From Chloroflexota bacterium (lineage in GTDB: Bacteria > Chloroflexota > Limnocylindria > Limnocylindrales > CSP1-4), in assembly GCA_003141455.1 (NCBI GenBank), contig PLMA01000019.1, positions 1,305-65,304 on the forward strand: a DNA stretch of 64,000 bases, written 5' to 3'. The notes under the pieces are model-generated. The model was not told the DNA's origin and did no database searches. It worked only from the letters and a program-made list of their open reading frames with translations. Positions 22,217-60,552 of this stretch are shown here, in pieces. The position numbers and the translations under genes were made by a program. Position 1 is the stretch's first letter. Each line of letters opens with the position of its first letter.

Positions 22217-24290
<2,074 letters not shown>

Positions 24291-58473: not shown

Positions 58474-58596
58474 TCAGTGAGGGTAGGTGGTCCCCGTCGA
58501 TCCGGCCAGCGCCGATGCCAGTGGGATCAACGCCAGAGCCACCCCCAGGATCCAAGCGACGACGACTTTACGAAGGCTGATACGGCGAGCGAACAT
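58474..58596 (-). CDS. 40-aa small secreted peptide, candidate signalling propeptide
   Basis: MFARRISLRKVVVAWILGVALALIPLASALAGSTGTTYPH; AAAGGAG RBS 7 nt before ATG; TTGACC-N17-TACGAT promoter upstream; shorter than the supplied ORF cutoff. Confidence 0.7.
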   Translation of the reverse strand: MFARRISLRKVVVAWILGVALALIPLASALAGSTGTTYPH

Positions 58597-58659
58597 TGAC
58601 GACTCCTTTCAGGAATCGCCCGCCGGTGGCCCAGGCCCGAACGGCCCGTCGGCGCTGAA

Positions 58660-58688
58660 ATCGTATGGGCGGTCGCCAACGCGGTCAA
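58660..58688 (-). promoter_or_regulatory. Sigma70-type promoter for the small peptide
   Basis: Minus strand TTGACC-GCGTTGGCGACCGCCCA-TACGAT, 17-bp spacer. Confidence 0.65.
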
Positions 58689-58762
58689 GTATTTATGAAC
58701 ACCGGAGCCTGCACGCACCATTGCTGTGCGCCTCGGATGAGACAGGGCGTACACTGCTTGTC

Positions 58763-60058
58763 ATGGCAAGAGTCAGTCGCACCCGTCCCCGAGTGGACGA
58801 TTCCCCGCTCGCCCGACAGATAGGCGAGAGACTTCGCCGGACCCGCCTGGCCGCCGGTCTGACCCAGCAGCAGCTCGCCGAGGGCCGCTACACCAAGGCC
58901 TACGTGAGCGCCCTGGAGAACGGCCTCAGCCGGCCGTCGATGGCCGCTCTCAACTACCTCTCGGACAGGCTTGGCATCCCGGCCAGCAAGCTGATCAACG
59001 ACGAGCCCGCCGCCTGGGCGCGCCTCGAGGCCGATCTGGCCCTCGCCTCCGGGCGGTGGGATGACGCGATCGCCGCCTACCGCGATCTGCTGGAGTCCGC
59101 AGTCACGCGCGAGGCGCGAGCGGAGCTCATGAGCGGCCTGGCCGAGGCGCTGATCCGTGTGGGCAAAGGGCGCGAGGCCACAGCATTCGCGGCCGAGGCT
59201 GCCCGGATCTTTCATTCCGCGAACAGGGAGCCGGAAGCGGCGCTGAGTGAGTACTGGCTCTCGGCCGCGCAATACCAGCAAGAGAACGGGGCCGAGGCGA
59301 AGGCGCTTCTCCAGACCATCTTGAGTAGGGTCCGAGCCGGCATGCGGGTCGAGCCGGATTTCGAGCTTCGCCTGGTCATGGCGCTGTCGAGCAACGAATC
59401 TCGCGAGGGCAATCACGGCGCCGCCCTGGCCTACCTGGAGGAGGTCCGCGGTCTGGCCGGCTCTCTCGACGACCGCAGACGGGCCCACTATCTGTTTGAC
59501 CTGGCCTACAGCTATCGCGAGACCGGCGACTTCGAAGCCGCGGTGCGCTCCGGCATCGCCAGCCTGGAGCTCTACCGGAGGGTCGAGGCAGATCGCGATG
59601 CGGCGAGCCTGGAGAACGACCTGGCCCTTTCGTTCCTGGCGCTCGGCAACATGGGCAAGGCGGCCGAGCTCGCCGCTTCGGCCCACGGCAAACTTGAGTC
59701 GCTGGGAGACGACTGGTGGCTTGCGCACGTCGTTGAGACGCAGGCACGGATCGCGCTGGCCGGCGGTGCCGCAGACCGGGCCGCGGCGAGTGCCCAAGAG
59801 GCTCTGGCCATCGCCGACCGCGCTGGCAACGTGACAGCATCGGTCGAGGCGCTGCTCACACTGGCCCGCGCACAGGCCGCGCTCGGAGAGAATGAGGCCG
59901 CCCTGGAGGCGAACCGCCGCGCCGGAGAGCTGGCTCGACAGCTCGGCAACAAGAGCCTCGTCCGCAAGGCCCTGCGCGATTGGGCCGACGCCCTGGCTGC
60001 TGCGGGTCAGCACGAGCAGGCGTTCGCGATCATGCGCGAGGCACTGGCGGTCTCCTAG
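58763..60058 (+). CDS. HTH (XRE) transcriptional regulator with TPR repeats (RRNPP-like architecture)
   Basis: LARQIGERLRRTRLAAGLTQQQLAEGRYTKAYVSALENGLSRPSMAALNYLSDRLG HTH, followed by about 330 aa of TPR-like helices. Confidence 0.88.
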   Translation: MARVSRTRPRVDDSPLARQIGERLRRTRLAAGLTQQQLAEGRYTKAYVSALENGLSRPSMAALNYLSDRLGIPASKLINDEPAAWARLEADLALASGRWDDAIAAYRDLLESAVTREARAELMSGLAEALIRVGKGREATAFAAEAARIFHSANREPEAALSEYWLSAAQYQQENGAEAKALLQTILSRVRAGMRVEPDFELRLVMALSSNESREGNHGAALAYLEEVRGLAGSLDDRRRAHYLFDLAYSYRETGDFEAAVRSGIASLELYRRVEADRDAASLENDLALSFLALGNMGKAAELAASAHGKLESLGDDWWLAHVVETQARIALAGGAADRAAASAQEALAIADRAGNVTASVEALLTLARAQAALGENEAALEANRRAGELARQLGNKSLVRKALRDWADALAAAGQHEQAFAIMREALAVS

Positions 60059-60258: not shown

Positions 60259-60552
60259 ATGCCACTCGTTTCTCCGAGCCGCCCTACACCCGGCCCGCGG
60301 AAGATCGGCCCGGTGCCGTGGTATCAGAACGGTTGCCGTGGGTTGACCGTTCACGCAGGCACCGATGTGCCCTCGTTTGACGATCCGATGATCCGTGTCG
60401 CCCTGGTTCGGGGCGCTCTCGCGTGCACACGGATCGGCGACCTGGAAAGGGCGCTCAACCGAGAGCTCTGGTCGCTCGGCTACGTTGCCCGCCTGGAACA
60501 CAATCTGACGGATCGATCGCTGGTGCACGTGGAGGTCGTGAGCGGCCGCTGA
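60259..60552 (+). CDS. Small hypothetical protein
   Basis: 97 aa ORF; C-terminal part (VALVRGALACTRIGDLERALNRELWSLGYVARLEHN) has protein-like composition. Confidence 0.4.
   Translation: MPLVSPSRPTPGPRKIGPVPWYQNGCRGLTVHAGTDVPSFDDPMIRVALVRGALACTRIGDLERALNRELWSLGYVARLEHNLTDRSLVHVEVVSGR

Follow-up and report, generated by a model that had tools for sequence, protein, structure and literature searches.

A pair of divergently transcribed genes lies within a 64,000-nucleotide stretch (the window) of contig PLMA01000019.1, which belongs to a 3.07-Mb, 68-contig genome assembly of a Chloroflexota bacterium (GCA_003141455.1). The minus-strand gene (58474-58596) has 40 codons and encodes a predicted exported propeptide. 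The plus-strand gene (58763-60058) encodes a 431-residue regulator, here called the receptor, in which the open reading frame (ORF), Pfam matches and an AlphaFold2 model identify an XRE helix-turn-helix (HTH) domain followed by nine tetratricopeptide repeats (TPRs). The two start codons are 166 bp apart. The propeptide, MFARRISLRKVVVAWILGVALALIPLASALAGSTGTTYPH, divides at its predicted cleavage point into a signal peptide and a nine-residue tail (MFARRISLRKVVVAWILGVALALIPLASALA|GSTGTTYPH). This organization recalls the RRNPP peptide-signaling systems of Bacillota, and the analysis below addresses whether the pair works in the same manner.

The 40-codon ORF divergent from an HTH-TPR regulator was proposed in an earlier note on this DNA, and the proposal proved correct and understated. 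Small ORFs were selected by strict criteria (28-60 residues, a Shine-Dalgarno sequence, a basic n-region, a hydrophobic core and an A-x-A-like site), and the propeptide ORF was the sole qualifying ORF across the 64-kb window. Orthologous receptors had ORFs that pass these criteria at a density of 1.15 per kb in their 700-bp upstream regions, compared to 0.017 per kb in the rest of the loci. A divergent propeptide was present at 16/16 same-genus receptor loci. The ratio of nonsynonymous to synonymous polymorphism (pN/pS) was calculated for the 15 same-genus loci that share a short spacing (162-176 bp), which gave 0.48 in the propeptide frame and 1.21 and 1.57 in the remaining forward frames. 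One reverse-strand frame had a lowish pN/pS of 0.60 and was not read as a gene. The propeptide frame is coding and under purifying selection, and the density contrast, the codon signature and the conservation rule out a chance ORF. The earlier note had set the lack of small-ORF conservation or of a coding signature as grounds for abandoning the pair; conservation and a coding signature were sought, and both were found. The Shine-Dalgarno sequence AAAGGAG (58603-58609, minus strand) is located 6 nt 5' of the propeptide ATG and has a Shine-Dalgarno-like counterpart in 15/15 close relatives. It was predicted in that note along with the TTGACC-N17-TACGAT promoter, and both elements are in place and conserved in relatives. 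The relatives also retain the basic n-region, the hydrophobic core and the A-x-A site, features that point, by rule only, to a Sec signal peptide. The propeptide of genome G001 is broken near its end by a frame change.

The C-terminal tail follows a regular pattern in the family peptides. Codons 32-40 (58477-58503, minus strand) specify GSTGTTYPH, the predicted mature nonapeptide after ALA. A comparison of 41 family peptides bore out the nine-residue tail claimed earlier: nine residues follow A-x-A in 38 of them by a simple rule and in 39 by eye, the penultimate residue (position 8) is proline in 37, and the last residue (position 9) is histidine, arginine or lysine in 37. DLAGAPWP[KR] is present twice in the G078 propeptide, after A-x-A and again at the C-terminus, and the G078 relatives G077 and G079 have a similar nonapeptide at the C-terminus behind a spacer. 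The G078 duplication and the C-terminal placement in G077 and G079 indicate that the C-terminal nonapeptide, and not the hydrophobic part, is kept by selection.

The propeptide promoter contains a conserved site that is a candidate operator. The -35 box TTGACC (58683-58688, minus strand) is separated by 17 nt from the -10 box TACGAT (58660-58665, minus strand), which is conserved in the genus and takes the form TASSAT across most of the family. On the opposite strand the -35 box reads GGTCAA, which does not vary in an alignment of 15 intergenic regions from the genus, and the block upstream of this motif is also conserved there. The candidate operator GTTCATAAATACTTGAC (58684-58700, minus strand; family consensus GTTNAGNAATACTTGAC) is an imperfect dyad that overlaps the -35 box, and a repeat finder run on the intergenic region returned no inverted repeats. 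The propeptide promoters of the family have the form GTTNAGNAATACTTGAC-N17-TASSAT, which is kept at locus L068 where the peptide gene has moved 3' of the receptor. Across 107 family genomes the exact 17-bp consensus, in which position 12 may be C or G, has 16 occurrences, all of which fall at propeptide promoters; the reversed-pattern control has 0 occurrences in these genomes. A scan of the source genome allowing up to two mismatches returned one exact match, the site at 58684-58700, and three 2-mismatch matches, with one match for the reversed-pattern control. A wide regulon cannot be claimed from three sites near the control level. The exact site sits solely at the peptide promoter, and a receptor that binds there would therefore be connected to the peptide gene.

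The pairing of peptide and receptor was counted across the family. At E ≤ 1.5e-6 a peptide profile made from 41 sequences matched 45 of the 107 genomes, and 44 of the 45 also have the receptor. The receptor is present in 58 genomes, and the peptide was found in 44 of these 58 versus 1 of the 49 others (Fisher p 2e-16). These counts only describe the association because the profile was built from the same loci; a more independent test comes from the searches with other peptide types. In G089, the sole peptide genome without a receptor match, the peptide is located at a contig end and adjoins a small HTH gene; G035 has a second peptide match on a contig-end fragment. The peptide gene occurs in four arrangements relative to the receptor (divergent, co-directional upstream, convergent downstream and co-directional downstream), and adjacency is retained in all four, which rules out a shared promoter as its sole cause. 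Five receptors of genus g19 (L020, L025, L028, L029 and L049) have no nearby peptide in the sequence searched, which is short upstream of some of them, and G065 has a second receptor accompanied by a peptide (L065). A separate XRE HTH gene of about 95 residues, co-directional with the receptor, lies between peptide and receptor in most other genera of the family (L015, L017-L019, L021, L022, L027, L030, L050, L052, L058-L066, L069 and L073) and is missing from most of the window's genus. The conserved -35/operator site doubles as codons for the N-terminal SSIAKH of this small gene.

A receptor profile detected homologues in other families of the class and of the phylum. Beside these distant receptors lie other small ORFs that are exported by rule, with tails such as EGQPPFPR, STGGGDFPR and DNGKGSWP, and thus the pairing recurs well outside the locus from which it was first proposed. 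Several peptide types were recognized. The CDPxxxGGxC type is co-directional upstream of the receptor, as is the type ending ADG...CC or ...HI; the AD.LPG.[HRK] type is divergent from the receptor; and a lipoprotein-like SCAEVWPNPT type is also found beside distant receptors. Profiles for the CDPxxxGGxC and ADG...CC types were each built from nine seeds and searched genome-wide. The CDPxxxGGxC profile had 17 matches at E < 1e-10 in 177 genomes, eight of them outside the seed, and 17/17 adjoin a receptor; a further match in G054 at 4e-5 was left out of the count. The ADG...CC profile had 36 matches at E < 1e-6 in 42 genomes, 28 of them outside the seed, and 35/36 adjoin a receptor. Of these matches, 27 are beside a receptor detected at E ≤ 1e-25, and inspection of the remaining nine placed eight beside a receptor that was unlisted by the genome search and one at a contig edge.

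Peptide type follows receptor phylogeny. A tree built from 135 receptors has pure clades for CDPxxxGGxC (9/9, support 1.0) and AD.LPG (7/7, support 1.0), and other types likewise cluster by receptor clade. All DPG peptides fall in one receptor clade when the duplicate loci L165 and L171 are typed on the proper copy. In these sequences peptide and receptor have co-diversified. The CDPxxxGGxC propeptides (L162, L164, L166, L167, L170, L172, L175, L179 and L180) carry two cysteines that could form a disulfide loop; RRNPP signals are linear. Tails that end in Cys-Cys are frequent in another family of the phylum (L205, L207, L208, L209, L213 and L226-L234), some genomes of which (G394, G442, G531 and G247) have at least two receptor-peptide pairs. 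Longer propeptides with a DPG motif, some with repeats (DPGFGG, DPGDGGGF), are found at L163, L165, L171, L177, L181 and L221. A DPG motif is reported for AimR-type signals (PMC12700828), and the likeness is possibly coincidental.

The receptor starts at 58763 and not at 58487, the start of the longest ORF. A -10-like TACACT (58750-58755, plus strand) is conserved 7 nt 5' of the receptor ATG, and a similar element stands 6-7 nt from the ATG in most orthologues. The closeness of this element to the ATG suggests that the receptor mRNA is probably leaderless. The AlphaFold2 model has a mean predicted local distance difference test (pLDDT) score of 91.3 and places the HTH domain at residues 14-78 (58802-58996, plus strand), in agreement with Pfam, and the nine TPRs in a superhelix at residues 87-429 (59021-60049, plus strand). 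A second AlphaFold model was made for a receptor of another family of the phylum that is 25% identical to the window receptor over 337 columns, and it has the same HTH and nine-TPR layout (pLDDT 86.7). Among bacterial Protein Data Bank (PDB) entries the PlcR-PapR and Rap-pheromone complexes rank first. Of the pheromone receptors, Rap bound to competence and sporulation factor (4gyo) reaches the top target TM-scores (0.73 and 0.76). The HTH-TPR architecture read from the sequence in the earlier note is thus upheld by a predicted nine-TPR superhelix with pheromone-bound Rap among its closest bacterial structures. Polar residues at the TPR groove positions R87, D91, E128, Y164, R203 and N285 are nearly invariant. 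A search of viral structures returned mostly generic TPR proteins, and plasmid records held just weak partial matches, in Streptomyces and Embleya.

We consider it probable that the two genes form a self-contained, autoregulated peptide-sensing system that works like RRNPP systems and lies outside Bacillota. The small gene would give rise to a propeptide exported by Sec, and signal peptidase would cut after A-x-A to free the C-terminal nonapeptide (here GSTGTTYPH); the longer propeptides of some lineages would need a second cut. The peptide would then re-enter cells, most simply through an oligopeptide permease, and the genome encodes at least seven Opp-type oligopeptide-binding proteins (SBP_bac_5). 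Inside the cell it may dock on the concave side of the nine TPRs, and the receptor with its bound peptide would have altered HTH binding at the 17-bp site that overlaps the -35 box in the promoter of the peptide gene. Repression relieved by peptide is narrowly preferred to activation because the site covers a near-consensus -35 box. Sequence and models show the gene and the selection on it, the features of an export signal, the promoter with its conserved site, the pairing with the receptor, the co-diversification and the fold; we infer cleavage, import, binding of the peptide and of the site, the direction of regulation, a role between cells and any target other than the peptide gene.

Several observations weigh against this reading. 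The genome has essentially one copy of the site, and no regulon beyond the peptide gene is visible. No peptide was found near the receptors of G004, G060, G063, G064, G067 and G099, and some distant receptors had no candidate peptide in the inspected loci. The HTH matches PlcR, and Rap is among the best folds, yet the best E-values in a Foldseek search of the PDB belong to the eukaryotic LGN/Pins TPR domains, and the structural similarity is therefore partly generic to TPRs. The mean entropy of groove positions (1.54 bits) is scarcely different from that of other TPR positions (1.62 bits), and overall groove conservation, which is not clearly above background, was dropped as evidence of peptide binding.

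The closest competitor keeps all of the parts and changes their purpose. The peptide could report the export or envelope state of its own cell rather than population density, a variant that suits the very local wiring and does not call on the assumed uptake by importers. It is unlikely, because the lineage-specific tails look like pheromone specificity types and not like a fixed secretion reporter. It is quite improbable that the exported peptide functions outside the cell, as an antimicrobial or envelope factor, and that the neighboring XRE-TPR protein controls its gene without sensing it. Divergent neighbors often share a regulatory region, and the lack of a visible regulon beyond the peptide gene would be expected; however, adjacency outlasts rearrangement, including convergent and downstream positions that have no common promoter, and the match of peptide type to receptor clade extends over large distances. 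The short, hydrophobic product also brings to mind a membrane-active peptide akin to type I toxins that is silenced by its XRE neighbor while the TPR domain senses something else. The only well-conserved site is the one at its own promoter, where many genera also have an overlapping second small XRE gene; both observations are in keeping with silencing. This explanation is nevertheless highly unlikely. The conserved part is the tail, with its nine residues, Pro8 and basic residue 9, the duplication affects the tail and not the hydrophobic part, the signal peptide has a c-region with A-x-A, and tail types follow receptor clades; a test for type I toxin-like features instead found a conserved cleavable export site, conserved tail length and ends, and a duplicated tail. 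The clades in which the ORF is co-directional just upstream of the receptor would suit a regulatory leader, such as an attenuator or upstream ORF, whose product has no function. This explanation is hardly credible, since in the window's family the ORF is divergent with its own promoter, selection acts on its amino acids, its export signal and its tail, and in other clades it lies 3' and convergent.

The likeness of the peptide-sensing system to RRNPP systems was compared feature by feature. Four parts of the published five-part RRNPP signature (PMC10075063) are present, and the fifth, the Sec signal, is predicted by rule only, as described above: the receptor has 431 residues (range 250-500) and matches TPR_12 as well as HTH_31/HTH_3 above Pfam cut-offs, the propeptide has 40 residues and its relatives 26-92 (range 10-100), and the two genes are directly adjacent. 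The listed Pfam matches of 53 members included generic HTH and TPR models and no RRNPP-specific model, and for this reason the system is classed here as RRNPP-like and not as a proven member. RRNPP membership by descent is not established.

NprR-NprX of Bacillus offers a close parallel: NprR combines nine TPRs with an HTH domain, and its gene neighbors that of the small exported propeptide NprX. The Chloroflexota pair comes from a different phylum, and among the listed matches it shares with NprR no model more specific than HTH and TPR. Its signal is predicted to be a nonapeptide of fixed length that signal peptidase itself would release. NprR acts on a wider set of targets, and no such set is visible for the Chloroflexota receptor. 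QssR, NprR and Rap constitute a nine-TPR clan (PMC12700828). The Rap-Phr systems of Bacillus and phages share the nine TPRs and the target TM-score of 0.73-0.76 with peptide-bound 4gyo, and Rap-Phr propeptides with duplicated pheromones are known (PMC11343458). PlcR belongs to the five-TPR clan (PMC12700828), in contrast to the nine TPRs of the Chloroflexota receptor. PlcR-PapR of the Bacillus cereus group also has an HTH and TPR regulator, and PlcR is the best HTH-region match in a PDB sequence search (E 1.2e-7) and matches by fold at E 3e-6. PlcR sites are present at many promoters, whereas the exact site is unique in the Chloroflexota genome. Rgg and PrgX act at the promoter of their own small peptide, and in Rgg-SHP and PrgX-PrgQ, as proposed here, an XRE-HTH regulator is tied to that promoter. 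Their peptides exit through PptAB and are not recognized as Sec signals (PMC10075063), and their receptors are of the five-TPR clan (PMC12700828), unlike the predicted Sec signal and nine TPRs of the Chloroflexota system. The best NCBIfam match of the receptor is to the Streptomyces NsdA-type HTH-TPR regulators, far under the cut-off (37.5 versus 75 bits). To our knowledge, NsdA-type regulators have no exported peptide partner.

The subjects of the RRNPP studies PMC10075063, PMC9765709 and PMC12700828 are Bacillota and viruses. No RRNPP-type system in Chloroflexi or Chloroflexota was found in the open literature, a scope that excludes most subscription papers and all bioRxiv preprints, and such peptide systems seem undescribed outside the Bacillus/Clostridium phylum. 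On balance we lean toward the view that Chloroflexota possess a diversified, phylum-wide superfamily of HTH-nine-TPR peptide-pheromone receptors. It would comprise six or more peptide types, among them candidate disulfide-looped signals (CDPxxxGGxC) and signals that end in Cys-Cys. If this is true, cytoplasmic peptide signaling of the RRNPP kind would not be a Bacillota invention and would be much older or have arisen more than once. A 2025 study describes the TPR number of the RRNPPA ancestor, nine or five, as an open question that an outgroup could help to settle (PMC12700828). The Chloroflexota family, with its HTH, nine TPRs and exported propeptides, is a candidate for that missing outgroup. 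Concrete nonapeptides and a defined DNA site are now available to probe peptide signaling in a widespread and poorly cultured phylum.

A 97-residue ORF located 3' of the receptor (60259-60552, plus strand) is conserved in the genus and has no Pfam match. It is 53-89% identical in most same-genus loci and absent in G055 and the other genera examined, and it is possibly a partner or target of the system. The NUDIX, aldo-keto reductase, HAD and DUF72 neighbors were ruled out as parts of the system because G055 and the other examined genera keep the peptide and receptor alone. The sole Rfam gathering match in the window is a tRNA-Asn (GTT) at 24216-24290 on the minus strand.
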